From: an uncultured Rikenellaceae bacterium | GTDB lineage: Bacteria; Bacteroidota; Bacteroidia; Bacteroidales; Rikenellaceae | Reading direction: 5' to 3' | Assembly: GCA_947074135.1 (NCBI GenBank) | Contig: CAMTOL010000036.1 | Location: forward strand, 1 to 13,523 | DNA length: 13,523 nucleotides | Part shown: one piece after another, positions 1-13,523 of the stretch | Position numbering within the stretch: position 1 is the first letter of the stretch | How the letters are laid out: each line of letters opens with the position of its first letter | Translations under genes and position numbers: made by a program | The notes under the pieces: generated by a model | Databases searched by the model: none | What the model was told of the DNA's origin: nothing | Seen by the model: only the letters and a program-made list of their open reading frames with translations

Positions 1-1
1 T

Positions 2-113: not shown

Positions 114-137
114 GTTTTTTAGAACGTCATATCTTAC

Positions 138-150
138 TTTTCTCAAACGT
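138..150 (+). promoter_or_regulatory. Candidate operator, copy 1 (TTTTCTCAAACGT)
   Basis: This 13-mer recurs exactly at 2241-2253. Both copies lie upstream of a leftward -7 box (at 83-92 and 2209-2218), although at different distances (about 45 and 22 bp). Here the core AACGTCAT is also repeated: 123-130 and 146-153, 23 bp apart, about two helical turns, as in AraC-type tandem sites. The adjacent AraC-type regulator is the obvious candidate binder. Copy number is too low for certainty. Confidence 0.35.
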
Positions 151-162
151 CATTATTATATG

Positions 163-200
163 TAATAAAAAATCCTCGAACCATTATGATTGGTTCGAGG
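163..200 (-). terminator. Rho-independent terminator after the AraC-type regulator
   Basis: A perfect 10-bp inverted repeat (CCTCGAACCA at 174-183 and TGGTTCGAGG at 191-200) encloses a 7-nt loop. On the minus strand the stem is followed by a T-rich run (ATTTTTTATT). It begins about 28 bases after the stop codon of the regulator at 229 and ends the hydrolase-regulator operon. Confidence 0.85.
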
Positions 201-228
201 AGTCAGATTATTTAGGAAGGCGATATCT

Positions 229-1059: not shown

Positions 1060-1073
1060 ATCCCATTATTTTT

Positions 1074-2189
1074 TTAATCAATATTATCCCACCACTTACG
1101 GCTCTCAAAAGATAAAGATACTACTTTTTCTCCCATTATTGGTGCTATGATCTCAATTTGATTATCAATAGCCAAATCCCACACCATATTAATCGACTCC
1201 GTCCAAGGGTGAAGGGCTAAGTCAAAAACGCCCCAATGGATAGGAAACAATCTATCATCACCCACAGCTTGACAAACACGAATCGCCTCTTCGGGAAATA
1301 GATAGGTATTTGGCCACCCTGCATTCCAACCATCAATCTCCACACAAGCCAAGTCGAAAGGCCCATATTTTTCACCTATATCTTTGAAGTGTTCGCCGTA
1401 TCCTGTATCTCCGCTCCAAAAGATATTTACATTATCGCTTTTAATTGCGTATCCGTTCCATAAGGTTCTATTTCGATCGCTTCGGCTTCTTCCTGAATAG
1501 TGCACCATAGGGCAAGCTGTAATCTTCAACTCATCTACAATAATAGAGTTTTCCCAATCCAACTCCTTTATCTTGCTCGTCTCTACACCCCAGTTTGCAA
1601 TACGTGACCCAACCCCCAAGGGAACAACGAATGTTATATCCCTACGACTTAGCTCTTTAATGGTAGCCATCTCCAGGTGGTCATAATGGTCGTGGGTGAT
1701 GAGCACAATATCTATGTGCGGAAGTTCATCTCTGGTAATTGGTGAAGATGAGTAGCGGGAAGTAATGTATGGGAAAGGGGCTGCATTTTCAAGCACAGGG
1801 TCTATTAAAATTCTCTTTGAATCGAGTTCTAAAATAGCAGAGGAGTGCCCTAACCAATATAGAGCAAAATTAACTGAGGTGTCCGAAAAGTCACTCTTTG
1901 TCAATACCTGTTTCGGCATCTCTTGAGTTGGGGCATTTGGTGATTTCTTGAAGAAACGAGCAAACCCAGCATCTCCACCGGTTGTTCGTTCGGGATAGTA
2001 CACTAACGGCTGGGGACTAATAAACTCAGATGTTGATGTTGAGTAGTAATCATACTGACCATACATCTGGGAGCTCTGACTTTTAGATAATATACTACCA
2101 ATATTATCCAACACCTGCACAACCACTAAGCCGATAAAGATAATCAGCAATAGTGCTATAATCGCTATAATTTTAGTTCTTTTTTTCAT
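1074..2189 (-). CDS. Membrane-anchored MBL-fold hydrolase, UlaG/RomA/NAPE-PLD-like
   Basis: A 371-residue metallo-beta-lactamase-fold protein. Residues 2-27 are a basic start plus one hydrophobic helix, which would anchor or export it. The zinc-site motifs are all present: HDHYDH at 166-171, a later metal His at about 230 (MVHYSG), SGDTGY with Asp at about 261, and HWG with His at about 318. The WLGHSS motif at 112-117 and the segment FDLACVEIDGWN are typical of the branch containing RomA-like envelope proteins and NAPE-hydrolysing phospholipase D, as opposed to antibiotic-degrading lactamases. The probable role is hydrolysis of a phosphodiester or acyl compound at the inner membrane; the substrate is unknown. 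It is the first gene of a two-gene operon with the AraC-type regulator downstream, and a good promoter lies just upstream. Confidence 0.88.
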   Translation of the reverse strand: MKKRTKIIAIIALLLIIFIGLVVVQVLDNIGSILSKSQSSQMYGQYDYYSTSTSEFISPQPLVYYPERTTGGDAGFARFFKKSPNAPTQEMPKQVLTKSDFSDTSVNFALYWLGHSSAILELDSKRILIDPVLENAAPFPYITSRYSSSPITRDELPHIDIVLITHDHYDHLEMATIKELSRRDITFVVPLGVGSRIANWGVETSKIKELDWENSIIVDELKITACPMVHYSGRSRSDRNRTLWNGYAIKSDNVNIFWSGDTGYGEHFKDIGEKYGPFDLACVEIDGWNAGWPNTYLFPEEAIRVCQAVGDDRLFPIHWGVFDLALHPWTESINMVWDLAIDNQIEIIAPIMGEKVVSLSFESRKWWDNID

Positions 2190-2208
2190 AAACAGACCTT
2201 ATATTCAC

Positions 2209-2239
2209 TGCAAAGATACTTGTATTTATCCTATACAAA
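2209..2239 (-). promoter_or_regulatory. Promoter of the hydrolase-regulator operon
   Basis: The minus strand carries TATCTTTGCA at 2209-2218, a full match to the -7 consensus TAnnTTTG. A TTTG at 2236-2239 lies 17 bp upstream and may be the -33 element, slightly closer than usual. The predicted transcription start leaves only a short leader before the ATG at 2189. Confidence 0.65.
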
Positions 2240-2240
2240 G

Positions 2241-2253
2241 TTTTCTCAAACGT
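2241..2253 (+). promoter_or_regulatory. Candidate operator, copy 2 (TTTTCTCAAACGT)
   Basis: Exact second copy of the 13-mer at 138-150, immediately upstream of the possible -33 element of the hydrolase promoter. This position would suit an activator of the hydrolase-regulator operon. Confidence 0.35.
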
Positions 2254-2444
2254 TATTTATTCCTTTTCTTAAAAGTTTTTATCGACTTGCACTTCAGGTA
2301 AAAATACAATCTAAGGCAATCGTCGATTTTGTAAATAAGTTTTGTTCAACATTAGAAAGACCATCTAATTCGATTTTAATTGTTGACATAGCATCAGATT
2401 ACTTTCTAATTGAGAACATTGAGAATATAATTATATGAAAGTAA

Positions 2445-2642
2445 CTAAATAGCAGTTCTTAAAAACAGATAAGGCAGAGCCTTTTTCATCTCTGCCTTAC
2501 CACTCTTGCGGTCATAGACCTTTTTTGATTTGTGTACCCCTGTAATACTAACAGGACGGTTGTGATTTTCAATCTCAGCCTGACGACTTGCTCGTCGGTT
2601 GGCTTTGATGTAATCACGCTCAGTAATTTTCTGTCGTTTCAT
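2445..2642 (-). CDS. Small conserved basic protein (65 aa), function unknown
   Basis: I place the start at the ATG ending at 2642 (MKRQKITERDYIKANRRAS), which gives 65 residues. A longer frame reaching 2807 would run deep into the neighbouring TfoX-like gene and its extra residues look non-coding. The protein is highly charged and basic, with the stretch VHKSKKVYDRK in its centre. I recognise the pattern (ITExDYIKAxRxASRxxEI, then HKSKKxYDRK) as a small protein common in Bacteroides and relatives, but know of no assigned function. A TAnnTTTG box lies 26 bp upstream. A strong hairpin sits inside the last codons, before the stop, which is odd. Confidence 0.65.
   Translation of the reverse strand: MKRQKITERDYIKANRRASRQAEIENHNRPVSITGVHKSKKVYDRKSGKAEMKKALPYLFLRTAI
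2461..2499 (-). terminator. Terminator-like hairpin inside the 3' end of the small gene
   Basis: TAAGGCAGAG at 2470-2479 and CTCTGCCTTA at 2490-2499 are perfect 10-bp inverted arms around a 10-nt loop. On the minus strand the stem is followed by TCTG and then five T residues (2461-2465). The shape is that of an intrinsic terminator, but it lies 5' of the TAG stop at 2445-2447, so termination here would give a message without a stop codon. Confidence 0.5.
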
Positions 2643-2667
2643 CTTTACATCAATTTTGATTTCGGCA

Positions 2668-2675
2668 CAAAGATA
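2668..2675 (-). promoter_or_regulatory. Possible -7 box for the small basic protein
   Basis: The minus strand reads TATCTTTG, a perfect TAnnTTTG match, 26 bp upstream of the ATG at 2642 and spanning the intergenic gap just after the TfoX-like gene. No TTTG is visible at the -33 distance, so it could be weak or fortuitous. Confidence 0.4.
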
Positions 2676-2676
2676 A

Positions 2677-3003
2677 CTATTTATTCTTTTGTTTGCGAGG
2701 TTTTGGGAGTGGGGTATTTTGTTCGAGCAACGGAACAACCTTTGCCACCAATTCAGAGTCCTCAATATCCAACATATAGTGAGGTTTTGCACCATTATAT
2801 GGTTCACCTACACGAGCACTTGCCATCACGCCCTCCACGCAAGGCAACATCTTTACAAATACCGTATTGTCACACACAAGCAGTACAGGTTTTTCGTTAG
2901 CATAAACGCAATATTCACCAAACATCTTCTTGAAGCGAAACTCAAAAGGTAGCCTTTCCAGCTCTCCCATCACAAACTCTATATAATCTACTGTTGTTGC
3001 CAT
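2677..3003 (-). CDS. TfoX N-terminal domain protein
   Basis: A 108-residue single-domain protein matching the N-terminal domain of TfoX/Sxy. Diagnostic features are the early LERLPFEFRFKKMFGEYCVY segment (about 15-34), followed by the strands VLLVCDNTVFVKML. It lacks the C-terminal TfoX domain of the Haemophilus competence regulator. Stand-alone N-domains of this length are common and their function is not known, so a competence role should not be assumed. The lysine-rich tail (PKPRKQKNK) is typical. The small basic protein follows 34 bp downstream and may be co-transcribed. Confidence 0.8.
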   Translation of the reverse strand: MATTVDYIEFVMGELERLPFEFRFKKMFGEYCVYANEKPVLLVCDNTVFVKMLPCVEGVMASARVGEPYNGAKPHYMLDIEDSELVAKVVPLLEQNTPLPKPRKQKNK

Positions 3004-3020
3004 AACTATCTGCTTTTACA

Positions 3021-3040
3021 GTATTTATTATAATAAATAC
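3021..3040. repeat. Perfect 20-bp AT-only core palindrome
   Basis: GTATTTATTA at 3021-3030 is followed directly by its exact reverse complement TAATAAATAC. It lies in the 56-bp gap between the TfoX-like gene and the endonuclease-domain gene, 18 bp upstream of the former's ATG. With no loop and little GC it is a poor terminator; a dimeric regulator site is more likely. Confidence 0.45.
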
Positions 3041-3059
3041 GAATCTAATTTAATGTGTA

Positions 3060-3578
3060 TTATGCAACTAAAAGAGCTGCAATTATTATAGGTATTACTG
3101 AGTCAACAACTCGTTTCTGAGGTTGAATATATGTTGAGATAAGTGTTGTTCGTAACTTTGCTCGCACATCATCATCTTTTAGGAGGTCAAAAAGTTCACG
3201 ATCTATTTTAGCGCAGCGGAAATGTTTTCGCATTGTCCCAGTAGCGTATGGATTACCTGTACGAAGAGTTTCAATTGTATCTTCGCCACCTACAAATGGA
3301 ACAAGCGTCCAAAATGGCTCTGAATGAAGATGAAAGAAAGGAGTTCCAATTTTAGGCGAGAACAAAATGGATCGACCAACATATCTATCCCAATTATGTT
3401 TAAACTGCTGTTCCAATCGTTCAGACAACTCTATTTCATTGTTTTTTATCACACCACACTCTACCAGATCAATCACACTAAGCAGCAACACTGCTTTGTG
3501 CGGTGCTGGCATACCTTTTTGTTTGTTGGTATGCAACGAACAGAAAAACAGGTCGTATTTATTTAAAACCTCTTGCAT
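3060..3578 (-). CDS. Stand-alone domain like the N-terminal part of McrA/HNH endonucleases
   Basis: A 172-residue protein. The segment PAPHKAVLLLSVIDLVECG (about 24-42), the following IELSERLEQQFKHNW, and the FxLHSEPFWTLVP block (about 82-94) resemble the N-terminal recognition domain that precedes HNH nuclease domains in ScoMcrA-like modification-dependent restriction enzymes. No HNH motif is present. After the domain's usual end (about residue 150) comes a hydrophobic tail (VIPIIIAALLVA) that I do not recognise. It is either a natural single-domain protein or a broken endonuclease with a new C-terminus. The ATG sits one base after the TGA of an upstream coding remnant, suggesting the two once belonged to one coupled unit. 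The surroundings (remnants, insertion-sequence repeats) point to a decaying defence or mobile patch. Confidence 0.6.
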   Translation of the reverse strand: MQEVLNKYDLFFCSLHTNKQKGMPAPHKAVLLLSVIDLVECGVIKNNEIELSERLEQQFKHNWDRYVGRSILFSPKIGTPFFHLHSEPFWTLVPFVGGEDTIETLRTGNPYATGTMRKHFRCAKIDRELFDLLKDDDVRAKLRTTLISTYIQPQKRVVDSVIPIIIAALLVA

Positions 3579-3579
3579 A

Positions 3580-3753
3580 TCAGCTGTATTTTTCTTTTAA
3601 TTCAAGTTTTTTAATGCGAGATTCTATACCGCCTCGTTTGCGTTGAAATATTTCTGATAGTTCTTTATTTGCCGATGCACAGCTTGTTAATACGTTGATT
3701 ATAAGGTATTTGCGTATATCAAAACTTACTGGTTGGTTCTGAAAAATTTTACA
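3580..3753 (-). pseudogene. C-terminal remnant with a helix-turn-helix-like end
   Basis: An open frame of 57 codons with no ATG, GTG or TTG start runs from an in-frame TAA at 3754-3756 to the TGA at 3580-3582. Its end, ELSEIFQRKRGGIESRIKKL, resembles the small HTH-like ending (ELAEIFQRxxGAIxSRLKKL) that I recall at the C-termini of some Bacteroidota helicase-like proteins. The rest of the protein is missing. The TGA lies one base before the ATG of the 172-residue gene, an arrangement typical of translationally coupled genes, so this was probably the tail of a longer neighbour lost by deletion. Confidence 0.45.
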
Positions 3754-3800
3754 TTACAAACACTTGATTATTAGCGTGTTGTAAATGATGTTTTTCTTTG

Positions 3801-3983
3801 TTACTTTCTGGTACAGAAAATAGAAAAAGTATATTTATAAATGTCATCTGTACTTAATTCGCCATTAGCGTTACTTTTTTTTGTGTCAGTAAATATGATT
3901 TTAGAGTTTCTGCTATGTATGTTGTACATATGATTGTTGTAATTGAATATCTCAGCTGTCAATGACTGATTGGAAAAAACGGT
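3801..3983 (-). pseudogene. Truncated 3' end of an unrecognised gene
   Basis: The minus strand holds a 60-codon frame ending in TAA at 3801-3803. Its composition is protein-like and it ends in ELSTDDIYKYTFSIFCTRK, with mixed polar and aromatic residues unlike random AT-rich DNA. The frame becomes featureless where the IS21-like repeats begin at 3985, so the 5' part appears to have been removed by an insertion sequence or a deletion. An internal ATG would give only about 42 residues. The family is unknown to me. Confidence 0.35.
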
Positions 3984-3984
3984 T

Positions 3985-4032
3985 AAATTGACCCCTCTGC
4001 GCCAGAGGAAATTGATCCCCTAAAGTTAGAGG
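3985..4032 (-). mobile_element. Tandem 24-bp repeats, remnant of an IS21-family end
   Basis: Two adjacent units, 3985-4008 and 4009-4032, share 16 of 24 positions; both begin AAATTGAyCCC and end AGAGG. The first contains a hairpin (CCTCTG-CGC-CAGAGG). On the minus strand they read GGGGATCAATTT and GGGGTCAATTT, the style of the multiple terminal repeats downstream of istB in IS21-family elements of Bacteroidota. A related GACCCCGATTTTGG lies further right at about 4048-4062. No istA or istB remains, so this is a scar, not a live element. The strand given is my guess from that comparison. Confidence 0.55.
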
Positions 4033-4077
4033 CGAAAAGCAAAGTAAAGTTGTGGTCCAAAATCGGGGTCTGAGTGG

Positions 4078-4368
4078 ATGATTTTGTCCTGGTTAAACTT
4101 TCTGTTTTTATCGTTAGTTTTGCTACCAGTTTTATATCTTATAAAATTTTTGTCGGACAGTACTACAGATCAACTAAAAAAACAACTTTTTTATTGGAGG
4201 TTTACACCAAAATCAGAGCCCCAATTATACGTAAACTCACTCCATTTCATATCGGAGCAGAAACAGCAAACACCCTCATTCGATAGATTTGAAACTGCCT
4301 TATTATTATATCGAGAAACAAACGTGCAAATCAAGGCTATCCCCTCGCTCCTTGATTGGATTGAGTAA
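4078..4368 (+). CDS. Doubtful small membrane-anchored protein
   Basis: A 96-residue plus-strand frame fills the gap between the IS21-like scar and the activase gene, and overlaps the activase 3' end by 63 bp on the opposite strand. It would have one N-terminal hydrophobic segment (about residues 5-25) and a C-terminal stretch, SFDRFETALLLYRETNVQIK, which loosely resembles the first helices of a helix-turn-helix seen in some Bacteroidota proteins. No promoter or ribosome-binding site is evident, and a second frame overlaps it from 4074. It may be chance coding or a gene fragment. Confidence 0.22.
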   Translation: MILSWLNFLFLSLVLLPVLYLIKFLSDSTTDQLKKQLFYWRFTPKSEPQLYVNSLHFISEQKQQTPSFDRFETALLLYRETNVQIKAIPSLLDWIE

Positions 4369-5232
4369 CATCACATCTAAACTCTTTCCGTTGCCCTTGT
4401 ATTGCAAACCTAGCTTTCGGTATTTTTCAACGCCTAAAATATGATAAGGCAAAAGCTCTACACGCCTAATATTTAACCCCAAAGCTAACTCAAACAACTC
4501 ATCAAAGAAAGCATCTTCAAAATTAAACCCAGCAACGCAAGGAACACGGATTACGACTTTACTACTATCATACCAGGCAATTTGCCGCAGATTATCCATA
4601 ATCAACTCCTTGCTTGCGCCTATAACCTGTTTTAGTTTATTTGAATCGGTATGTTTAACATCAAAGAGGAGTAAATCTACGTAAGGTAGCACATTTATAA
4701 TAGAGCTTGTTGGTACCTGCCCACAAGTTTCGATAGCAGTACTTATCCCCTCCGCGTTGCAACGTTTAAGAAGCTCCAAAAGACAATCGAGCTGGAGCAG
4801 TGCCTCGCCACCCGAAAAAGTAACACCCCCTCCAGAGCTTTCGTAATAATCCTTATCTCGCAAAATCACACTCATAACCTCGTCAACGCTCATCTCCACT
4901 CCTACCAATTTCATCGCACTTTGAGGGCAATGTTCGACACACTCGCCACAACCCTTACAAGCCAACCTGTCAATATCCAAAACCCCATCACAGAGAGATA
5001 GCGAATCATAAGGGCAGCTATTTACGCATTCTCCACACTTCGCACACTTTTGTACATCGTAAAATAGCTGCGCACTTACGGTTTGCGATTCAGGATTGGC
5101 ACACCAAGGACAGTGCAGCGGACAACCCTGAAAAAACACTACTGTTCTAATCCCTGGTCCGTCGTGTATTGCAAAACGTTCTATCTCTAGTAGGCGAACC
5201 ATCTCTCTATCTTCTATTTTTGTATTTGTCAT
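4306..5232 (-). CDS. Glycyl-radical enzyme activating protein (radical SAM)
   Basis: A radical-SAM activase that would install the glycyl radical on the enzyme encoded directly upstream. Using the ATG at 5232 it has 308 residues. The SAM-cluster motif CPLHCPWC gives CxxxCxxC with Cys at 37, 41 and 44. A ferredoxin-like insert follows with two four-cysteine sets (63/66/69/73 and 92/95/98/102) for two further 4Fe-4S clusters, as in most activases except that of pyruvate formate-lyase. GGE for SAM binding is at 141-143, DVKH at 191-194, and a C-terminal LLPYHILGVEKY. I prefer the start at 5232 because it follows the upstream TAA by one base (TAA-T-ATG); a longer reading to 5259 would overlap the enzyme gene. 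The C-terminus (LHVCFSI) is not a family hallmark. Confidence 0.95.
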   Translation of the reverse strand: MTNTKIEDREMVRLLEIERFAIHDGPGIRTVVFFQGCPLHCPWCANPESQTVSAQLFYDVQKCAKCGECVNSCPYDSLSLCDGVLDIDRLACKGCGECVEHCPQSAMKLVGVEMSVDEVMSVILRDKDYYESSGGGVTFSGGEALLQLDCLLELLKRCNAEGISTAIETCGQVPTSSIINVLPYVDLLLFDVKHTDSNKLKQVIGASKELIMDNLRQIAWYDSSKVVIRVPCVAGFNFEDAFFDELFELALGLNIRRVELLPYHILGVEKYRKLGLQYKGNGKSLDVMLLNPIKERGDSLDLHVCFSI

Positions 5233-5233
5233 A

Positions 5234-7519
5234 TTACTGTTTATCATCATAAAGAACACGGCTTAGTAACTCTTGCTGAATATTGGGAGACAAATCGACA
5301 AAGACTGCCGAGAATCCGCTTACTCGAACAATCAAATCGGGATATTTTTCGGGATGAGCCATCGCATCTTCCAAAATTCCTCTATCGACAATTGTCACCA
5401 TTAAGTGGCAGCCGCCTTTGCGGAAATAGGTCTTAAATAGGCACTTTATGGTATCTCGATACCCATTAAAGAGCGCAGGTGTGAACTTAATATTCTGCAC
5501 CGAACCGCCGTGATACTTTGCATCGAATCGTGCAAGAGAGTTCAACAGCGCAGTCGGTCCATTCTTATTGGCTCCACCTTGCGGATTATTGGCTGGGTTC
5601 ATATACATAGCCGACAATCTACCGTCAGGCGATGCTCCAGTTTGGTTTCCCCACTCGGTATTGAGCTGATTGTTGCTAATGACAATTAAATAGTACTGCA
5701 TTCCAATAGCGATTCCTCTATCTCTGACGCCTTTAGCCACAAACTCATAGAGGTCGTTTGCCGTATTGTCGGCATCGGATAAGTCATTACCATATTTCTG
5801 ACACTCAACACAGTGTTTACGCATCAACTCATAGCCTTCGAAATTGGCAAGTAGAGCGTCATTAATCTCTCTTAGTGAGTATTTATGCTGCTCAAAGACC
5901 AACTCCTTGATAGCTTGTAGAGAATCCGAAGTGTTAATATTTCCATACGTTTCGTTAGTTCCGCCAAGATATCTAACGCCTCCGCCCAAAATTGGTTTAC
6001 CTCTCGATATACAATCGGCAGTGAGCAGACTGCTAAAAAGGAAACCGACGTACCTATTCATTACTATATAGGAGTTGTATTGAGCCTCGACTGCTAAATC
6101 GAGGTAGTAATTGAGCAGCTCTTTAAAGCCATCGTAAAAATCTTCATAACTACCGAAATCCTCTAATCTTTTAATCTTAACGCCTCCATCTTTGCGAACT
6201 CCGTCTATTGGGTCTATACCGCCATTGAGGAAGATGGTCAAAATTTTGAGTATATTGATGCAAATATTTGGAGTACCGGTACTTTGCCCTTGAATCACAA
6301 ACTCTGTGCAACCAAAGGGTACATACTGTTCTGCTGTCTTTTCGTCAATTCGCATACCGTAAGCAACAGCAGGGACATTTATTTCGTCGTTATAGAGTGT
6401 TGGGTAGGTTGCACCTGCTCCAATAGCATCCATCGCCTCGTCCCATATCTGCTCAGAAGTATTTTCATCGACACGAAGAGTAAATTGAGGCTCAACATAT
6501 CTGCTATTTTTAGCAACCTGCATAGCTAGATGCAGAAATATATCAGCCTCTTTGGGGTGTTTGCGTCCACGACCGCCTACTATAATTCGACCATTGACCG
6601 TAGTTCGTCGATTTTCGATAAGTGTCCAGAGCGAAAGTATATAGTCGTAAGCCTCCTGTTCGCTCAAACGCCCAGCCTCCAAATCGGCGGCAAGATATGG
6701 ACCTAGATAATCGTCCAAACGACCATAGTTTATAACACCTGCAAGTAGAGCATAGAGCCAAAATAACTGAATAGCCTGATGAAAGGTTTGAGGTTTATCC
6801 TCTTTGATTACCCCCAAACTTTCGTACATAGTCAGCAGCTCTTTTTTTCTGCTCTGCGATGCACTTTCGATATCCTTTCGAACCATCGTTTGGAGAGCTT
6901 CGGCGCACTGTGTAAAGAGATTAAGGCACTCAATTCCTGATTGATAGAAAGAGTTGTTTGGAGCATACTCCAAGTGGCGTTGAAGAATTTGTTTTAACCC
7001 CGAAATACCATTATCGAGCAGCAACGGATAGTCAAGCATCATTCCCGACAGCCGAGCAGTGGTAATCATCGGGTAGTCGCAATCGATGAACGTACCTAAA
7101 GTTGTCCCATTAACCGTTTCTTTATTGAATTGGGTCTTTACATCGTGGTCGAGCCAGTAGTCGTAGAGTTTGTCGATACGGTGTTTTTGGCTTTGGTCTA
7201 GCTGAGTCTGCATTTCACGAAGCTTTCTGAAAACGCAGTAGTGACCAACGCCGCCAAGCGAGGTAACAGAGCCAAAACCGATAGGCAGAAAGTCGATGCG
7301 ACCCGCTATCAAATCGCAACTTTCAATCTCACGAAATAGGGTTGGATACAGCACTTTGAGGCACTCAACCTCACGATGCTCCTTAGTAGAGTTCGACATT
7401 GAGCGGTGAACATCAGTGTAACGCTCCATTATAGTCAACTGTTCGAGCAGAGGTTTTTGGCAAGGAATTTTCTTGCTAATCTCAACATTTTGAGCGACTT
7501 CGACATTAAAACCAGACAT
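5234..7519 (-). CDS. Glycyl-radical enzyme of unknown substrate (PFL-like family)
   Basis: A 761-residue glycyl-radical enzyme near the full family length. The C-terminal radical motif is intact: RVSGFSAVFVDLS with the radical glycine at about 735. The active-site loop reads PFGCTEF with the thiyl cysteine at about 404 and a glutamate at about 406. A single Cys-X-Glu pair excludes pyruvate formate-lyase, which has adjacent cysteines. It is shared with dehydratases and C-C, C-N or C-S lyases, which as I recall have GCVEP; here V and P are replaced by T and F. Other family landmarks are GFGSVTSLGGVGHYC (81-95) and NPANNPQGGANKNGPTALL (641-659). It is expected to be cytoplasmic and strictly anaerobic. 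The activase follows with a TAA-T-ATG junction. Its promoter carries the same operator as the kinase-epimerase operon, so the substrate is probably a sugar or sugar derivative of that pathway. Confidence 0.93.
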   Translation of the reverse strand: MSGFNVEVAQNVEISKKIPCQKPLLEQLTIMERYTDVHRSMSNSTKEHREVECLKVLYPTLFREIESCDLIAGRIDFLPIGFGSVTSLGGVGHYCVFRKLREMQTQLDQSQKHRIDKLYDYWLDHDVKTQFNKETVNGTTLGTFIDCDYPMITTARLSGMMLDYPLLLDNGISGLKQILQRHLEYAPNNSFYQSGIECLNLFTQCAEALQTMVRKDIESASQSRKKELLTMYESLGVIKEDKPQTFHQAIQLFWLYALLAGVINYGRLDDYLGPYLAADLEAGRLSEQEAYDYILSLWTLIENRRTTVNGRIIVGGRGRKHPKEADIFLHLAMQVAKNSRYVEPQFTLRVDENTSEQIWDEAMDAIGAGATYPTLYNDEINVPAVAYGMRIDEKTAEQYVPFGCTEFVIQGQSTGTPNICINILKILTIFLNGGIDPIDGVRKDGGVKIKRLEDFGSYEDFYDGFKELLNYYLDLAVEAQYNSYIVMNRYVGFLFSSLLTADCISRGKPILGGGVRYLGGTNETYGNINTSDSLQAIKELVFEQHKYSLREINDALLANFEGYELMRKHCVECQKYGNDLSDADNTANDLYEFVAKGVRDRGIAIGMQYYLIVISNNQLNTEWGNQTGASPDGRLSAMYMNPANNPQGGANKNGPTALLNSLARFDAKYHGGSVQNIKFTPALFNGYRDTIKCLFKTYFRKGGCHLMVTIVDRGILEDAMAHPEKYPDLIVRVSGFSAVFVDLSPNIQQELLSRVLYDDKQ

Positions 7520-7546
7520 AGCTACTTGTGGTTTAGAAATATACTA

Positions 7547-7554
7547 CAAAAGTA
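7547..7554 (-). promoter_or_regulatory. Promoter -7 box of the glycyl-radical enzyme operon
   Basis: The minus strand reads TACTTTTG, a match to TAnnTTTG, 28 bp upstream of the enzyme's ATG. The same ten-base context (ACAAAAGTAG on the plus strand) recurs before the kinase gene. No TTTG is seen at -33; instead the weaker regulator half-site lies there, which suggests activator dependence. Confidence 0.75.
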
Positions 7555-7571
7555 GTAGTCAGTCGTTGGTC

Positions 7572-7613
7572 AAGAAATGATTATTCTATATATAAAAGAT
7601 GGACAAAAGTTGC
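7572..7613 (-). promoter_or_regulatory. Predicted AraC-type operator upstream of the glycyl-radical enzyme
   Basis: Plus-strand ATAAAAGATGGACAA at 7592-7606, extended to TTGC at 7613, matches the site before the kinase gene at 20 of 22 positions. The spacing to the -7 box is 37 bases in both cases. A second, weaker half-site, AAGAAATGA at 7572-7580, lies 22 bp from the equivalent part of the first (AAAAGATGG) and corresponds to AAGCAATGG at the other promoter. Tandem direct half-sites two helical turns apart are the normal target of AraC-family dimers. The regulator encoded immediately upstream (stop at 7617) is the likely binder. Confidence 0.75.
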
Positions 7614-7616
7614 TTT

Positions 7617-8525
7617 TTAGTATTCATAATCTCCTTTTCTAACATTTAGTTTATAGGCAGAGGGTGCAACGCCCATAACTTTTTTAAAAAGTCGGCTAAA
7701 ATAATATGGGTCCTCAAAGCCAAACTTCAACGCAACCTGATTGACTCTCAAATTGGTATTAACCAGCAACTCCGCCGCTCGTTTGACTTTGATACTCTGA
7801 AAATAAGCAACCGGCGACATACCTGTTTCACGATGAAAAACCCGATAAAAATAGGACTTCGAATAACCGAAATTTGATGCCATATCACCCAATGTTAACT
7901 GCACCTCAATATTCTCGTTCATATAGTGTGTCGCAAGACTTATGAAAGAGGTATTGACAGCCTTTTCGGTCGAATATTTAGCCTTCTGGTACTCGCTAAC
8001 GTAAAGAAAAGTAGCGAATAGATGATTTACAGCCATATTGACATAACAAACAGTCGATTCTCTAGTTTCGCTCTCCATCACATTTAACAGCTCATCGAAA
8101 ACCTCAATACGCTGCGATACTCTTGACTGTTTGCTTATCTTTATATCATTAATCGAGCGGAGTTGTTCATAAATCGGTGGTGCTTTTTTTCCCTTGAAGT
8201 GTATCCAATATATACTCCACGGCTCATTGCAATCTGCCCAATACCTATGCGGTACGTCGGAGGGTAGAACAAAAAATTGATTCTCCAAAACCGAATACTG
8301 CTCACCTTTTAGTTCATAATAACCCTTCCCCTTGACACAGTAAATCAGAATATACTCCCCACAACCATTCTTCCTCTCTATGTAGTGACCATCTGCCCTA
8401 GGAAAATATCCCATCGAGTGGACAACCAAATCCGCCGACAAAGGATTGGCTAATGCCTCCTCGATAACGTAGATTGGATAGACCACCAACCTCTGCCCCA
8501 CAAAACCGTGCCTAATCTTTACCAT
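7617..8525 (-). CDS. AraC-family regulator of the sugar/glycyl-radical locus
   Basis: A 302-residue regulator. The N-terminal half is a cupin-type sugar-sensing domain: GEYILIYCVKGKGYYEL (about 56-72) and the beta segment FFVLPSDVPHRYWAD (about 84-98), followed by WSIYWIHFKG, as in AraC/MsmR/RhaR-type carbohydrate regulators. The C-terminal half (about 200-293) has both HTH units, LTLGDMASNFGYSKSYFYRVF and VNQVALKFGFEDPYYFSRLF, and the family ending KKVMGVAPSAYK. It lies between the exported GH94-like gene (27-bp gap) and the glycyl-radical enzyme gene. Sitting at the end of the kinase operon and beside the second promoter, it probably binds the twin operators at 7572-7613 and 12737-12778, including that of its own operon. 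Activation by a pathway sugar is the likely mode but is inferred. Confidence 0.92.
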   Translation of the reverse strand: MVKIRHGFVGQRLVVYPIYVIEEALANPLSADLVVHSMGYFPRADGHYIERKNGCGEYILIYCVKGKGYYELKGEQYSVLENQFFVLPSDVPHRYWADCNEPWSIYWIHFKGKKAPPIYEQLRSINDIKISKQSRVSQRIEVFDELLNVMESETRESTVCYVNMAVNHLFATFLYVSEYQKAKYSTEKAVNTSFISLATHYMNENIEVQLTLGDMASNFGYSKSYFYRVFHRETGMSPVAYFQSIKVKRAAELLVNTNLRVNQVALKFGFEDPYYFSRLFKKVMGVAPSAYKLNVRKGDYEY

Positions 8526-8552
8526 AGCGATTGCTTATTTGAAGTTTAGTGG

Positions 8553-10868
8553 TTACTCGCTCAAGCGGTAGTAGCAGTAGAGAATCCAAGCGTGAGGATG
8601 GGCGCAATAGACTGGAATTGCAGCGTAATCCAAACTCTGGTCGGGCAGACCCTCCTCAGTCCCCATTAACGAGGACTCTACATTGTCGGCAGCCGACCAA
8701 TACGATGTCCAGTACTGTGGAAACTGTTGGGCATAATTTTTAAAGGTCATATTGCGCAATAGTCGCCAAGCCTCATCGCTATCAAATGTGTTCACTCCCA
8801 CAATAGCAGGTCCATTGAGCGAGTACCAAAATCCGCCATTCTCCCTAGAACCATCTTCAAGCCCTGGTGCGGTAAATTCAGGCGTTTGTTGCTGACGAGC
8901 TCCTAGTTTTTCGTTCTGGTAAACTCGTTTTTGCATCTGAGCGTAGAGTGCTTTTTTGCGCTCTATGGACAGCTCTTTGATTTGAAGCATATAGCCTTGT
9001 GGCTCTAAAAACATATTATCGTCGCCAATCGACTCGCCGTTGAAATACATTCGACGAGAAAACTCTCTATCGCCTAGGTCGACCATAAAAGCGTTGTAAA
9101 GCGAATCCCAATATTTGTTCATACTCTTAACTATAACCTCCGCCTTTTTTTGCAGCTCTTTGCTGTTTACTCTCTGAGCGTACTCTCTAAGCGATGGAAT
9201 AAGGTTGCTCAGTATGCTAATTGCCATTGTAGTATTCATATGCGACTCGGCTGTGTAGATAACCCAGTTATAGGGCGATGGCTTTGCAACAAACACATTG
9301 TCGTTCCAGTCGGAATTGAGCAGTCTGACTAATCCGTGAGGTCCTGTTTTGACGTTGTTTTTGAGGTACGAGAAGCAATTTTTCACACAATCCAACATCG
9401 AACCGCTGCCACCATTACCGTATGGAAAGAAGCCTACTTTTTCGTCCAAAAAGGCGTAATCTTTGGTAACTCTCAAATATTCAGACATCAGCATAAAGAA
9501 GAACAGCTGCTGGTCGCTCACATTATAGACCATATTTTCGGCATAGCCATTACCGTACTCTATGAGCCGAATTTCGCCCCAATTAGTTGTGCGTTTTGCC
9601 ATATATCGCATCACACTTTTGGCTAGTTCGGGGTTATAGTAAATCAGTGGCAGTGCGTGTTGGAAATTGTCACGTGCACTGGCGTGTTCGCCCCAGTAGT
9701 AGTCATAGATAGTGCCTTGCGGTATTTTAGTCTCTTTATAGAACGAGCTATATGTTGCCATTGCTTCGAGGTTGTAGGCGTGCCAACGAAGCTCTTGGCG
9801 AATCTCTTTGTCACTTTGGTTCTCTAGCGCAGGAATAATTTTCAGCCAATGAGCTGCAAACGACGATGCAGCGCTGTTATCCTTACTATGAGCATATAGT
9901 TCGGTTGCCATCTGCTCTATTTGCACCATATCACCCTCAAACGTAAAGCCGATAACCATCTCTATCGTCCTCTCTTCGTTACGTTTGAGAGTCAATGAGG
10001 TGGTAGCACTTAAGTTTCCATTTAAGTCATAAGCAACCACTCCTTCGGTTAAAAGTTTTATAAACAGTGTTGGAGGGTAGGCATCATACATCGACATCTG
10101 GTCGGGGTCAGCAATTAGCAGTGGGTCGTCAGATGAGGCTGTAACGTCGGCTTTAACAATTGATTTTACATTGTCAACGCTATATGTATTCTCGAAACTT
10201 AACGCTCTATTGCTCTGACGTTGAAACTGAATAGGGAGATAATTTGCCAGTACAGACTCCTCAAAATTTAGGCTAATCGCCTCTTTCCCACTGTTTTTGA
10301 TACGCACCTTTAGCAAAAACGCTGGCACTCCGCCGTCAATTGTCATTGATGGAGCAACCGATAGTTTTCGTTCAACCTCAAGGTTATTCGTTTTATACTT
10401 ATAGAGTGCAAATCCACAACCAAAGCTCTTTTGGTAGTGTTCATTGTGCGCTTCAGAACCTTTGCCAATTAGATGAATCTCCTTTACTGTGCTTTTATCT
10501 ATGCCCAAAATTGAAATCTTAGAGCCATTGGCACCAGAGTTCATCTTCTCGCCTTGGTTCATTCGTCCCCAGGCACGTTGCCCAGTGATGAGTTCATACT
10601 CACCGCTCACGTGCGTAAAGAGAGTTAGTTGATAGTTACCGAGCAGAAACCAGGGGTCATCGGATATTTTAGCTGCCTCTCCATTAGGCTCAATGCCTAC
10701 TGCGGGTAGTGCGCCAGTATATCTAAAATATGGCAAACCCGCGTTGTCATCTGCCCAGTATCCTATCTGAGGGGTTTTCTCTTTTGCATTTGCACTTAAA
10801 GCACCACTAGCAAATATTAAAACGAGTGCTATAAAAAGTTTTAGGGTTTTATTCATAGTTTTGAGCAT
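8553..10868 (-). CDS. Exported GH94-like (alpha/alpha)6 glycoside phosphorylase or hydrolase
   Basis: A 771-residue protein with a Sec signal peptide: basic start, hydrophobic core LFIALVLIFASGAL, and a likely cleavage after ANA at about 28; there is no lipobox cysteine. The mature start, IGYWADDNAGLPYFRYTGALP, and the following beta-rich domain (to about 310) resemble the N-terminal domain of GH94 enzymes (cellobiose- and chitobiose-type phosphorylases). The helical barrel follows, with RDNFQHALPLIYY (399-411), SDWND at 519-523 where GH94 has its catalytic acid, and ENGGFWY (676-682). GH94 phosphorylases are normally cytoplasmic, so an exported one is odd and it may be a hydrolase in the periplasm. 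The start could be 10868 or the ATG at 10856; both keep the signal peptide. It is the third gene of the kinase-epimerase operon. Confidence 0.78.
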   Translation of the reverse strand: MLKTMNKTLKLFIALVLIFASGALSANAKEKTPQIGYWADDNAGLPYFRYTGALPAVGIEPNGEAAKISDDPWFLLGNYQLTLFTHVSGEYELITGQRAWGRMNQGEKMNSGANGSKISILGIDKSTVKEIHLIGKGSEAHNEHYQKSFGCGFALYKYKTNNLEVERKLSVAPSMTIDGGVPAFLLKVRIKNSGKEAISLNFEESVLANYLPIQFQRQSNRALSFENTYSVDNVKSIVKADVTASSDDPLLIADPDQMSMYDAYPPTLFIKLLTEGVVAYDLNGNLSATTSLTLKRNEERTIEMVIGFTFEGDMVQIEQMATELYAHSKDNSAASSFAAHWLKIIPALENQSDKEIRQELRWHAYNLEAMATYSSFYKETKIPQGTIYDYYWGEHASARDNFQHALPLIYYNPELAKSVMRYMAKRTTNWGEIRLIEYGNGYAENMVYNVSDQQLFFFMLMSEYLRVTKDYAFLDEKVGFFPYGNGGSGSMLDCVKNCFSYLKNNVKTGPHGLVRLLNSDWNDNVFVAKPSPYNWVIYTAESHMNTTMAISILSNLIPSLREYAQRVNSKELQKKAEVIVKSMNKYWDSLYNAFMVDLGDREFSRRMYFNGESIGDDNMFLEPQGYMLQIKELSIERKKALYAQMQKRVYQNEKLGARQQQTPEFTAPGLEDGSRENGGFWYSLNGPAIVGVNTFDSDEAWRLLRNMTFKNYAQQFPQYWTSYWSAADNVESSLMGTEEGLPDQSLDYAAIPVYCAHPHAWILYCYYRLSE

Positions 10869-10874
10869 TATTTA

Positions 10875-10905
10875 CAAATTTAATCGAAAAAATTGAACAA
10901 ATTTA
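10875..10905 (-). promoter_or_regulatory. Possible internal promoter before the GH94-like gene
   Basis: In the 74-bp gap after the epimerase gene the minus strand has TAAATTTG twice, at 10898-10905 and 10875-10882. Either could serve as TAnnTTTG, and the first could supply the TTTG of a -33 element, though 15 bp is a short spacing. The shared operator is absent here. This could give extra transcription of the exported enzyme, or be chance in AT-rich DNA. Confidence 0.3.
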
Positions 10906-10942
10906 ACAATGATTCGAAATATTACATTTACCTCTACAGTTT

Positions 10943-11683
10943 CTAATGTTTGCTTCTCTCTGCCTCACGCCAGTTGTTTTGATAGCCTGTCAACAAATCG
11001 CTAAAGCGTTTGGTTATCAAGTGCGGACGAGTGATAGCACTGCCTACTACAACCGAATAAGCCCCTAAATAGAGTGCTTTCATCGCATCTTCGGGCGTAT
11101 AAATATGACCCTCCATAACAACGTGAGCCTTATCCTTGAAATCACGACACATTCGAGCAAACTCCCTCAAATCAGGCTCTTCGATATGTTTAGTTTGAGC
11201 TGTATAGCCATACAGAGTTGGACCAACAAAGTCAGCACCAAGCTCAATAGCTCTCACAGCCTCTTCGTACGAAGAAACATCGGCAAAAATTAGAGCTTCG
11301 GGAATCTCACGTTTGACAATTGGCAATAGCTCATAAGCTGGACGACCTACGTGAGTTATTTGGGAGGTGCAATCCATAGCGATAATATCGGCACCAGCCT
11401 CCCAAACACCTTTTGCAGCTTCGAGCGTTGGAGTAATAAAGACATCGGTATCGTCAAACCAAATTTTGTGCAGTCCTATAAGCGGCAAATCCACCTCGTT
11501 TTTGATAGCTCGGATTTGGTCGGGCGAGTTGGCTCTTAGTCCCACTGCTCCACCCCACTGAGCAGCCTTAGCCATCTTGACGACAAAGTCAATAGAGTAT
11601 GTTGGGTCGTCGTGCTGAACTTGACACGACACAATTAGACCTCCTTTGAGAGATGTGATTATCTCTTCGTTTGTTTGCTTCAT
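10943..11683 (-). CDS. nanE: N-acetylmannosamine-6-phosphate 2-epimerase-like protein
   Basis: A 246-residue TIM-barrel epimerase. The N-terminal LKGGLIVSCQ (12-21), GGAVGLRANSPDQIRAIK (44-61) and LPLIGLHKIW are close to NanE, with the catalytic lysine at about 73. DCT at 104-106 corresponds to the usual DAT, and VMEGHIYTPEDA holds the catalytic-site glutamate at about 191, followed by GAYSVVVGSAITRP (207-220) of the phosphate site. In NanE enzymes the reaction is ManNAc-6-phosphate to GlcNAc-6-phosphate in the cytoplasm. Small departures (GPTLYGYT for the common GTTLSGYT, DCT for DAT) leave room for a related 2-amino or 2-acetamido sugar phosphate. It begins two bases after the kinase stop codon, so the two are coupled and probably act in sequence. 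No NanA aldolase is present in the window. Confidence 0.88.
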   Translation of the reverse strand: MKQTNEEIITSLKGGLIVSCQVQHDDPTYSIDFVVKMAKAAQWGGAVGLRANSPDQIRAIKNEVDLPLIGLHKIWFDDTDVFITPTLEAAKGVWEAGADIIAMDCTSQITHVGRPAYELLPIVKREIPEALIFADVSSYEEAVRAIELGADFVGPTLYGYTAQTKHIEEPDLREFARMCRDFKDKAHVVMEGHIYTPEDAMKALYLGAYSVVVGSAITRPHLITKRFSDLLTGYQNNWREAERSKH

Positions 11684-11685
11684 TG

Positions 11686-12672
11686 TTATAGATTTTTGTT
11701 AAATATTTTAGATTTTTGTTCCAAAAGTGCTGCCCCGATAATACCAGCATCGTTGCCAAGTTTAGCACCCACTATCGGCGGCACTCCTATCATATCTGCC
11801 CCAAAAGTTGCTTTATAAACCTCCTCTCTAAGCGGATTGAATAGAAAATCGCCACTATTAGCTATTCCTCCGCCAAGAACGATTATCGAAGGACGGAAGA
11901 TTGTGATAAACGTCGATAACCCTGCCGCCAGATGCTTGATATACTGCTCAATTATTCCACTTGCCGTAGGGTCGCCTTTTTTTGCGGCTTCAAAGATTAT
12001 TTCGCCGTTGAATTCGATATTCTGCTCATCAACCATTTTCGCAAAGTCCGACTGAGGATAGAGTTTTAGTGTTTTTTTGGTAACTCTTAACAATGCGGTA
12101 AGCGAGCAGTACGCTTCCAGACACCCTTTCTGCCCACAAGTGCATAACTCTCCGTCATATACCAGTTTGGTATGTCCTAGTTCCGCTCCCATATTGTCGG
12201 CTCCAGTGTATATTTTTCCATCAATAATGATTCCGCCACCAACGCCAGTTCCGAGAGTGAGCATCAGCACATCTTTGTAGCCTTGAGCTGCACCTGCAAG
12301 AGCTTCGCCATAGACAGCACAGTTGGCATCGTTTTCTATGAAAAATGGGAGAGGAAGTTTGCCTTCGAGATGGTCGTATATAGGCATATTTTTCCAACCG
12401 AAACAGTTGGCGTGAACGAGCAGGTTGGTTTTGATATTAATACAACTAGGCATACCTATACCCCACGACGAGATTTGACTTATCTCCAAACCACTCTTAG
12501 CAACGACTCCACGACTCACTTCAACCATATTGTCAATAATTTCGGCGGTTGAGCGGTGAGCATTAGAGGGTATTTTTAGACGTTCAATAATTTGGTAATT
12601 ATCATCAACAATAGCGGCAGCCAAATTAGTGCCGCCAACGTCTAAACCGAGGTAGTATTTTTTGTTTTTCAT
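11686..12672 (-). CDS. ROK-family sugar kinase, probably an N-acetylmannosamine or glucose kinase
   Basis: A 328-residue ROK kinase without the N-terminal HTH of ROK repressors. It has the phosphate-binding LGLDVGGTN (8-16), FIENDANCAVYGE (111-123) with the catalytic aspartate at about 115, GTGVGGGI (141-148), and the ROK zinc site: ExGH at 164-167 and CTCGQKGC (177-184). It phosphorylates a hexose or acetamidohexose at O6 with ATP. The coupled epimerase makes ManNAc the most natural substrate (a NanK role), but sequence does not separate that from glucokinase or a kinase for another sugar. It is the first gene of the operon. The last codons contain a 12-bp direct repeat (TAGATTTTTGTT at 11689-11700 and 11709-11720 on the plus strand), which extends the C-terminus. 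Confidence 0.92.
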   Translation of the reverse strand: MKNKKYYLGLDVGGTNLAAAIVDDNYQIIERLKIPSNAHRSTAEIIDNMVEVSRGVVAKSGLEISQISSWGIGMPSCINIKTNLLVHANCFGWKNMPIYDHLEGKLPLPFFIENDANCAVYGEALAGAAQGYKDVLMLTLGTGVGGGIIIDGKIYTGADNMGAELGHTKLVYDGELCTCGQKGCLEAYCSLTALLRVTKKTLKLYPQSDFAKMVDEQNIEFNGEIIFEAAKKGDPTASGIIEQYIKHLAAGLSTFITIFRPSIIVLGGGIANSGDFLFNPLREEVYKATFGADMIGVPPIVGAKLGNDAGIIGAALLEQKSKIFNKNL

Positions 12673-12711
12673 CTCTTTTGTGCAATTGATTGGGATAAAA
12701 ATTCTTTATCA

Positions 12712-12719
12712 CAAAAGTA
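12712..12719 (-). promoter_or_regulatory. Promoter -7 box of the kinase-epimerase operon
   Basis: The minus strand reads TACTTTTG, identical to the box before the glycyl-radical enzyme and in the same ten-base context. It lies 40 bp upstream of the kinase ATG, giving a leader of roughly 30 bases. Confidence 0.75.
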
Positions 12720-12736
12720 GATAGTACACTTTGAGT

Positions 12737-12778
12737 AAGCAATGGCACTACATTGCATAAAAGATGGACAATAATTGC
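12737..12778 (-). promoter_or_regulatory. Predicted AraC-type operator upstream of the kinase
   Basis: ATAAAAGATGGACAA at 12757-12771, extended to TTGC at 12778, is the second copy of the site at 7592-7613. The weaker half-site AAGCAATGG at 12737-12745 lies 22 bp from the matching part of the first, as at the other promoter. The distance from the -7 box to the 22-bp site is 37 bases, exactly as at 7547-7613. Elsewhere the two upstream regions differ, so the conservation is site-specific and not a recent duplication. Confidence 0.75.
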
Positions 12779-12863
12779 ATTAAATCACCATTGTTGATAG
12801 TTGAGTGTCGCACCGAAGCAGTAGGTAAAGATGATGGTAAATCATAATACTGGACTTTCCAAC

Positions 12864-12899
12864 GGTAACTGCAGAGCCAGTTCGGCAATAAAAGTTACC
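12864..12899. repeat. Nested inverted repeats just before the IS3 orfA remnant
   Basis: GGTAACT at 12864-12870 pairs with AGTTACC at 12893-12899, and inside it AACTG (12867-12871) pairs with CAGTT (12878-12882). The two foldings are mutually exclusive. It lies within the leader of the transposase remnant and may belong to that element. I could not identify a terminal inverted repeat with confidence. Confidence 0.3.
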
Positions 12900-12907
12900 T
12901 TTGAAAG

Positions 12908-13188
12908 ATGGAAAGAAAAAATTACACTAAAAAGTTTAAAGAGTATGCCGTTAAGTGGAGTTATGAGCGCTCTTCTCAAAGCGCACTAGCTAAAGAGTTG
13001 GGTATCTCATCGACCTTGCTTAGCAAGTGGTGCAAAGAGTTTGCCGAGTATGGTTCGGCAAGTTTCCAGGACGAGGAGTGGAGCGTCTCACTGATGAACA
13101 GCGTAGGATTAAGGATCTCGAAAAAGCCCTTAAAAATAAGAAATTAGAGCTTGGCAAACCGAACGAAGCGATGGTCATTGAACTCTGA
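12908..13188 (+). pseudogene. IS3-family transposase orfA, frameshifted
   Basis: The start, MERKNYTKKFKEYAVKWSYE, and the HTH ALAKELGISSTLLSKWCKEF are typical IS3 OrfA. After SASFQ (codon ending at 13069) the frame is lost by an apparent one-base deletion. Restoring one G gives GRGVERLTDEQRRIKDLEKALKNKKLEL, the expected leucine-zipper continuation. That frame then decays (GKPNEAMVIEL) and stops at 13186-13188. Read without correction, the frame ends at 13147 after 79 residues. Confidence 0.75.
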
Positions 13189-13216
13189 CTCGCAAGGAGT
13201 TTTTAGACGTAGTCAG

Positions 13217-13523
13217 ATACTAAAAAAGGCAATAGCTGTCTTCTCAAAAATAGATCAGTAAGATATTCGTTTATGGATATTCATAATGGGTAAAATGAAA
13301 ATCGTACAATGTATGTTCCGAAAAGGGACCTGCTTGGAAAATTATTAGGAGCGAGCGCAATCAAACTCGTTTGAATTGCCAAGTGACGACATAATTTATG
13401 TACAATGCTGTGGCTGCAAGTTTCTTCAAGAGTCTAAAGTGCGTATTGGTGTATGGGTGCAATTTGCTGACCGCTTCTGAAATGGAGTTATTGATTTTTG
13501 AATACTTTGAATGCTGGTCCACC
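13217..13523 (+). pseudogene. orfA tail and orfB traces of the IS3 element
   Basis: At 13217-13258 the frame ILKKAIAVFSKIDQ, ending in TAA, is an intact IS3 OrfA C-terminus, although the region before it already contains a decayed version of the same ending. It is followed by fragments resembling the OrfB N-terminus in shifting frames, such as RYSFMDIHNG and then KMKIVQCMFRKGTCLENY, a stop, and ERAQSN. These recall the KMCxVxxVSRSGYYxW region. Stops and frameshifts throughout show it is dead. Confidence 0.45.

Follow-up and report, generated by a model that had tools for sequence, protein, structure and literature searches.

What a glycyl-radical enzyme (GRE) does among genes for sugar metabolism is the question raised by a 13,523-nucleotide stretch of DNA from an uncultured Rikenellaceae bacterium (assembly GCA_947074135.1, contig CAMTOL010000036.1, positions 1 to 13,523), here called the window. 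Six full-length open reading frames (ORFs) on the minus strand occupy positions 4306-12672, head to tail, with the gene of a ROK-family sugar kinase first and that of a radical-SAM activating enzyme (activase) last. Between these lie the genes of a NanE-like sugar-6-phosphate 2-epimerase, an exported GH94-fold enzyme, an AraC-family regulator with a cupin-type ligand domain (7617-8525, minus strand, 302 aa; AraC_binding, HTH_AraC 88.1 bits) and the GRE. Pfam and NCBIfam agreed with a preliminary description of the locus on all six co-oriented genes, and also with its remark that the window has neither NanA nor a transporter, since a scan of 10 window proteins against these two databases detected neither. 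The gaps from kinase to GRE measure 2, 74, 27 and 97 bases and the GRE and activase genes overlap by 26 bases; from this spacing and orientation, the six genes would be co-regulated. The source draft genome (2.09 Mb, 84% complete) yielded the GRE as its single Gly_radical match. In its general form, our answer is that the locus may encode an anaerobic hexose pathway in which a kinase, a 2-epimerase and a radical eliminase act on hexose-6-phosphate, and we put the chances of this answer at about even.

The GRE (5234-7519, minus strand, 761 aa; PFL-like 391.6 bits, Gly_radical 87.6 bits) has the attributes of its superfamily, namely a C-terminal glycyl radical loop (RVSGFS, containing G735), a PFL-like domain and a cognate radical-SAM activase. 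The activase (4306-5259, minus strand, 317 aa; Radical_SAM, Fer4) contains 4Fe-4S ferredoxin-like motifs and scored 335.3 bits with TIGR02494, the NCBIfam 'glycyl-radical enzyme activating protein' (cut-off 174.35 bits). The GRE motif GCTE (C404, E406) is of the GCxE form common to the dehydratase and lyase GREs aligned, and C404 and E406 were invariant across 50 aligned family sequences. By homology, C404 would carry the thiyl radical, E406 would act as the base and G735 would carry the glycyl radical.

To which kind of GRE does it belong? The protein stayed below the cut-off of all 12 NCBIfam families that it matched (317.1 vs 678.2 bits for TIGR01774, 260.1 vs 1100 for HypD and 240.8 vs 1050 for CutC); the named GRE families compared were PFL2-3, HypD, CutC, HpsG/HpfG, the indoleacetate and hydroxyphenylacetate decarboxylases, and PFL. 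Solved relatives scored nearly equally (PflD-type 8id0, 237 bits; HypD, 234.9; CutC, 226.4; YbiW, 211.3), and identity to the six characterised types aligned was 25-28% (YbiW, 24.6%; PflD, 26.9%; HypD, 27.7%; CutC, 28.4%; the others being 8id0 and glycerol dehydratase). We built a tree from 50 family members (the window and 49 loci), three sister GREs and these six references; the other seven of 57 loci, incomplete or unlisted, were excluded from alignment and tree. Main family and sisters formed one clade of 53 (support 0.998, stem 1.03) with all six references, including YbiW and PflD, outside. An AlphaFold2 model of the GRE (pLDDT 88) aligned to 50 structure chains listed with query-normalised template-modelling (TM) scores of 0.78-0.85 at 19-24% identity. 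Among the matches listed, the B12-independent glycerol and propanediol dehydratases (1r8w, 5i2g), HypD and CutC share the fold (TM 0.82-0.85) as well as the thiyl, base and glycyl motifs, whereas sequence identity to glycerol dehydratase, HypD and CutC was low, within the range given above. At the positions that we take to be active-site residues of glycerol dehydratase 1r8w, the column of H164 was a gap in our GRE, and H281, S282 and D447 corresponded to G261, V262 and N418; the pocket is therefore built differently. Of 290 positions conserved within the family (≥ 96% of 50 sequences), 56 were common to at least two of the three sisters and differed from every reference having a residue there, and 43 were found in neither sisters nor references. 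R304, T306, N309 and R311 are among the invariant residues and might bind phosphate. By these sequence comparisons, the GRE lies outside the characterised groups compared (the six references and the matched NCBIfam models), and the preliminary concern that it might fall within a characterised cluster was not borne out.

The sister GREs (L099 7865-10102, L100 8405-10210 and L101 7941-10166) are 38-44% identical and have their own activase; one of the three shares a genome with a main-type GRE. Their neighbourhoods were mixed, with ureohydrolase-like and Gfo/Idh genes recognised by eye and a GH5-like gene that narrowly missed the Pfam cut-off, and at the three sister loci they pointed to no substrate. 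We noted that this GH5-like protein (L101 11099-13051, beside a sister GRE) and one near a main-type GRE (L020 18116-18565) have N-termini that look very alike by eye.

The NanE-like protein (10943-11683, minus strand, 246 aa; PF04131 171.9 bits) exceeded the NCBIfam cut-off for NF002231 (243 vs 189 bits). We compared a GRE-linked set, comprising the window protein and 45 others (of the 50 loci that gave a tblastn match, the ORF caller missed five), with 11 canonical NanE sequences. All 46 linked proteins formed one clade apart from the canonical ones (support 0.969, stem 0.77). The catalytic roles described for Staphylococcus aureus NanE in excerpts of PMC8482478 fall to Q11, R40, K63, D124, E180 and R208; the corresponding Q21, R50, K73, D135, E191 and R219 were kept in 45-46 of the 46 linked proteins, as mapped by numbering offset and motif with the S. 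aureus sequence itself outside the alignment. The phosphate motif VG[SG]AxTR was present in 46/46 linked and 9/11 canonical sequences. Thus, family membership, catalytic residues and phosphate motif are shared with canonical NanE. In contrast, the published signature XPXIGIXKZ (Z basic; hereafter IGIxKZ) was found in 0/46 linked vs 7/11 canonical proteins by the same strict pattern, and the linked set has conserved Q108, Y158, H193 and Y195 plus an added conserved C-terminal tail, which differ from the four canonical NanE compared. On sequence grounds, the GRE-linked protein represents a distinct subfamily and not ordinary NanE. Since the catalytic and phosphate residues are retained, its substrate is likely an aldohexose-6-phosphate.

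Genome-wide enzyme checks covered 20 of 56 genomes, or 21 with that of the window. Linked and canonical NanE were both present in 7/20, the linked type being 37-44% identical to the seven canonical copies, and no GRE was found by these seven in flanks of ≈ 1.4-1.5 kb per side (less upstream in L076). On one contig (G463:C36, 22931 and 39951), the two types lie ≈ 17 kb apart. A third NanE copy (L105 8564-9295, in the genome of L039) was considered as a linked type lacking a GRE and was rejected, being 33% identical to that of the window; no GRE was found within the 17 kb fetched, and the adjoining gene has a start that reads SIS-domain-like by eye. An aldolase role for the NanE-like protein, in place of FSA, was disfavoured as well, because the retained residues fit enolisation beside a C1 aldehyde and because FSA/TalC was unmatched in 8/21 genomes.

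How widely is the combination conserved? Scanning species genomes, we obtained 56 related GRE loci at 59-75% identity from Bacteroidota and Firmicutes (Parabacteroides, Dysgonomonas, Tannerellaceae, Alistipes, Prevotella, Clostridium, Lachnospiraceae, Ruminococcus, Erysipelotrichaceae and others), and the protein database held at least 119 other GREs at 75-80% identity among the best 120 listed, two of them, at 75%, named Parabacteroides distasonis. Many lineages of the gut and rumen carry the clade. Neighbourhood ORFs came from a simple script that left antisense artefacts, recognised by eye (clusters c14, c17 and c20), and the key counts were redone with tblastn; these counts include incomplete loci and score a gene as absent if it lies outside the available locus DNA. 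An activase relative adjoins 54/56 GREs, and the two exceptions (L036, L045) are at contig ends. A NanE-like gene was present no more than 4.1 kb from the GRE in 50/56 loci, a ROK kinase (≥ 40% identity) in 31/56, an AraC match in 27/56 and a GH94-like gene (≥ 30% identity) in 12/56; 23/56 have the order ROK-NanE-GRE-activase on one strand. The AraC copies beside Bacteroidota GREs are 42-60% identical, and the matches at Firmicutes loci, at 20-30%, are probably not the same regulator. The neighbourhood is therefore conserved across two phyla, as the preliminary description needed it to be; of the partners that it expected to recur, the NanE-like gene did so consistently, whereas kinase and GH94-like genes turned out to be common but not obligatory.

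We also searched two genome panels, one of 395 genomes from the class of the window and one of 391 from a different class. Each contained one genome with a main-type GRE (in the first panel, that of the window itself), in which the linked NanE type was present too, and neither occurred alone; the other NanE matches reported in the two panels, at 40 and 44% identity, are in the canonical range. The conservation in related loci and in the panels shows that the arrangement is not due to chance. The locus is patchy, because the GRE was missing from the other 394 genomes of the class and the best NanE match among 60 other relatives of the window genome had an E value of 1e-5. Two irregular loci were noted in passing. 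In L029, the kinase and GH94-like genes are each broken into two ORFs (4364-5338 and 9342-11511), possibly by assembly error or a real frameshift. In L023, the activase gene is followed by one for a fusion of [FeFe]-hydrogenase-like, rubredoxin and rubrerythrin sequences (13361-15451), with an ORF of the same length in L025; perhaps the fusion serves in oxygen protection.

GREs of the GCxE type remove a hydrogen beside a hydroxyl and then expel the adjacent group. The mechanism proposed for NanE consists of enolisation at the C1 aldehyde and proton relay through the C5 hydroxyl (PMC8482478, in excerpt). Combining these two chemistries makes the series kinase, 2-epimerase, radical eliminase the most economical reading of the locus. 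Starting from the computed gene identities, their co-conservation, the separate GRE clade and the retained catalytic residues, we infer that the three enzymes act in series and that the GRE substrate is phosphorylated, and we likewise infer the bond cleaved and the product. A hexose would be released by glycosidases, a role that would fall to the exported GH94-fold enzyme in the window and perhaps to GH1, GH3 or GH125 members or an exported 3-ketoglycoside system at other loci. The ROK kinase would supply the intracellular 6-phosphate, a task possibly taken over elsewhere by a mannose-class phosphotransferase system (PTS) or a sugar-phosphate antiporter. The NanE-like enzyme would then invert C2 of the aldohexose-6-phosphate by the proton-displacement mechanism of NanE. 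The activase would place the glycyl radical on G735, which would generate the thiyl radical on C404; this radical would abstract hydrogen at one of the sugar phosphate's carbinol carbons, with E406 aiding the loss of the neighbouring oxygen group. The resulting deoxy-keto sugar phosphate (or deoxylactone) would go to aldol cleavage. More specifically, the locus might represent a new anaerobic branch of sugar catabolism: after 6-phosphorylation of a free hexose, a repurposed NanE would invert C2 and a GRE eliminase would deoxygenate the product, this GRE being the founder of a new clade whose NanE-less sisters use other substrates. Here, C2 inversion would give the leaving group the right geometry for elimination. 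This specific version we offer tentatively, as rather more likely to need revision than not. The GRE, NanE and ROK kinase are known kinds of protein, and we found no description in the open-licence literature of this GRE clade, of the dedicated epimerase or of their union. The earlier suggestion of a new radical pathway for a sugar or sugar phosphate has thus held up: the NanE-like protein, GRE and activase recur together, the GRE lies outside the groups compared, and the pathway is probably new.

The ROK kinase (11686-12672, minus strand, 328 aa; PF00480 236.7 bits) is glucokinase-like: it scored 254.9 bits with TIGR00744, slightly under the cut-off of 260.35, and its closest solved relative is glucokinase 3vgk. 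The GH94-fold protein (8553-10868, minus strand, 771 aa; Glyco_hydro_94 54.5 bits) has a signal-peptide-like N-terminus by eye and, besides the GH94 fold, a general acid assigned by alignment to D519 (in the numbering of P0121, a 767-aa form whose start lies 4 codons within the ORF). Compared with GH94 phosphorylases (cellobiose, chitobiose), it is 15% identical and its RDxxQD motif reads RDNFQH. At the motif-aligned position of the ENGGxFxH histidine, presumably phosphate-binding in the phosphorylases, the window protein has serine and the family majority alanine, in an alignment stretch that has a negative domain score. These differences make phosphorolysis doubtful. The enzyme is probably a hydrolase.

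Other sugar genes accompany a few related loci. In L050, a ManA gene (196.4 vs cut-off 116.2 bits) separates those of GRE and activase, with a gene of the same cluster at the same place in L019; in L048, a GH125 α-mannosidase gene separates those of activase and kinase. The kinase of L040 is preceded by a ChvE/GguAB-like monosaccharide ATP-binding cassette transporter that scored under the equivalog cut-offs, and ATPase and permease genes of the same clusters occur in L050 and L032. Near L038, mannose-class PTS genes IIB-IIC-IID are present on the opposite strand, under cut-offs, and 3/56 loci (L007, L016 and L055) have an organophosphate-antiporter-like (GlpT/UhpT-type) gene, also under cut-offs; L007 and L016 are without a ROK gene. 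In twelve Bacteroidota loci, exported 3-ketoglycoside enzymes of the DUF1080 cluster are encoded instead. All these would be alternative ways to feed hexose or hexose phosphate to one core, and ManA, the GH125 mannosidase and the sugar transporters agree with an aldohexose-6-phosphate substrate. The weight of these genes is limited, because each occurs in few loci and was picked from varied neighbourhoods that also contain fucosidases, rhamnosidases and other unrelated genes. A split transketolase in L039, with a counterpart in L047, raised the idea of sulfosugar metabolism, which was set aside because it concerned just these two related loci.

Several observations weigh against the proposed hexose pathway. 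The N-acetyl-contacting aromatics of NanE (Y149, F72) are kept as Y160 and F82 in 46/46 linked proteins, so these residues are compatible with an N-acetylated substrate. No NanE-like gene was found near the three sister GREs in the DNA fetched (one of them, in L100, at a contig end), and the GRE clade is accordingly not tied to NanE-type chemistry. Six of the 56 loci lack the NanE-like gene; in L022 and L027 the GRE begins at the contig edge and in L010 merely 960 bases follow the GRE, but L013, L037 and L038 lack it despite at least 5 kb on both sides. In the sequence at hand, a ROK gene was not seen in 25/56 loci. No single transporter, aldolase or downstream enzyme recurred among the loci, the PTS clue rests on L038, a locus without NanE-like and ROK genes, and each genome panel contained just one positive genome.

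The loci lacking a NanE-like or ROK gene speak for a GRE that acts on a released aglycone or polyol, with kinase and epimerase working separately on the sugar half. Most characterised GRE eliminases use small non-sugar alcohols, which also favours such a division of labour. Nevertheless, only the activase accompanies the GRE more constantly than the NanE-like gene does, every glycosidase tallied being less constant, and the pairwise distances of NanE-like and GRE proteins correlate (r 0.78 over 1035 pairs), although shared ancestry alone can yield such a correlation and it is compatible with plain co-inheritance. We regard separate substrates as unlikely.

Anhydrofructose reductase belongs to the Gfo/Idh superfamily, and Gfo/Idh oxidoreductases are encoded near several copies of the GRE (clusters c8 and c10, in 9/57 and 6/57 loci). 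This is of interest with respect to an independent anhydroglycolysis, in which the kinase would phosphorylate 1,5-anhydroglucitol or 1,5-anhydromannitol, the GRE would open the ring to give 1-deoxyfructose-6-phosphate and the NanE-like enzyme would act on the product. The precedent, to which the preliminary description had drawn an analogy through 1,5-anhydroglucitol-6-phosphate (AG6P), is real: according to excerpts of PMC12441222, YbiW and PflD of Escherichia coli are GREs that open the rings of AG6P and 1,5-anhydromannitol-6-phosphate (AM6P), two C2-epimeric 6-phosphates processed by different enzymes in a pathway of 6-phosphorylated sugars. The plan is the same as that proposed here, 6-phosphorylation followed by a GCxE-motif GRE with its own activase (PMC12441222, in excerpt), and the GRE fold is common to AG6P-bound 8id7 and AM6P-bound 8id0. 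FSA/TalC was over the cut-off in 9/21 genomes, including that of the window, but unmatched in the 8/21 mentioned above. The analogy does not extend to close relationship, as the GRE is no nearer to YbiW and PflD than to the hydroxyproline and choline enzymes HypD and CutC. It also has different residues at several aligned active-site positions: a histidine of PflD, 8id0, YbiW and glycerol dehydratase is a gap in the GRE, and an aspartate of PflD, 8id0 and glycerol dehydratase is N418. The neighbours differ likewise, with a ROK kinase and NanE-like gene here, fsaA beside ybiW and PTS genes beside pflD. Moreover, anhydrohexitols are without the C1 aldehyde and free C5 hydroxyl used in the NanE chemistry (PMC8482478, in excerpt). 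On this evidence, ring opening of an anhydrohexitol phosphate is quite unlikely.

The NF002231 match, the six catalytic residues and the two aromatics retained by the NanE-like protein, and the fact that N-acetylmannosamine (ManNAc) kinases belong to the ROK family, are all consistent with a ManNAc or sialic-acid branch, in which an ordinary ManNAc kinase and ManNAc-6-phosphate epimerase operate while the GRE handles another part of the same glycan. NagA and NagB were each over the cut-off in 16/21 genomes, and in L031 a NagB-like gene lies on the opposite strand, 42 bases past the activase gene; the latter is far below the NagB cut-off (105.4 vs 236.9 bits). The separate clade of all 46 linked proteins and their lack of IGIxKZ argue against an ordinary epimerase, as do the GRE-free canonical NanE in 7/20 genomes and the finding that the linked type never occurred without the GRE in the two panels. 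In three of the 21 genomes (those of L024, L029 and L030), NagB had no match and NagA was not over the cut-off, although these drafts may be incomplete; most of the genomes have each enzyme, and the gaps are an argument against an amino-sugar role, not proof. The label 'amino-sugar type' given to the locus earlier is thus not upheld, and we consider this branch decidedly improbable. Least probable of all is that the core handles an odd cleavage product such as 3-ketoglucose or a 1,5-anhydro-enone, as might be suggested by the genes beside the Parabacteroides GRE (a PF06439 3-keto-disaccharide hydrolase domain, a second Gfo/Idh, an AP_endonuc_2 protein and a glycoside 3-dehydrogenase of the BT_2158 family at 892.4 vs cut-off 750 bits), by the hydrolase and dehydrogenase clusters in 12/57 and 11/57 loci and by the fate of 3-ketogalactose, stated as unknown in excerpts of PMC9007349, since the hydrolase cluster was found only in Bacteroidota loci, with no member in the window or in Firmicutes locus DNA.

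The remainder of the window contains, on the minus strand, a second AraC regulator (ExsA_N), outside the operon and directly downstream of a metallo-β-lactamase-fold gene (Lactamase_B_2; the two together at 229-2189) whose product has a hydrophobic N-terminus by eye, as well as a short TfoX_N-like protein under the Pfam cut-off (2677-3003) and an ORF of 172 aa that matched nothing in Pfam or NCBIfam at E 0.001 (3060-3578). No RNA families or tRNA-type genes were found in the window (Rfam at gathering thresholds; ARAGORN).

Taken as a whole, the earlier interpretation is partly supported. Much of the gut's unusual anaerobic chemistry is the work of GREs, and YbiW and PflD are the only examples acting on sugar phosphates that we encountered. 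Since a culturable genus carries this defined set of three enzymes, the search for the substrate is directly testable.

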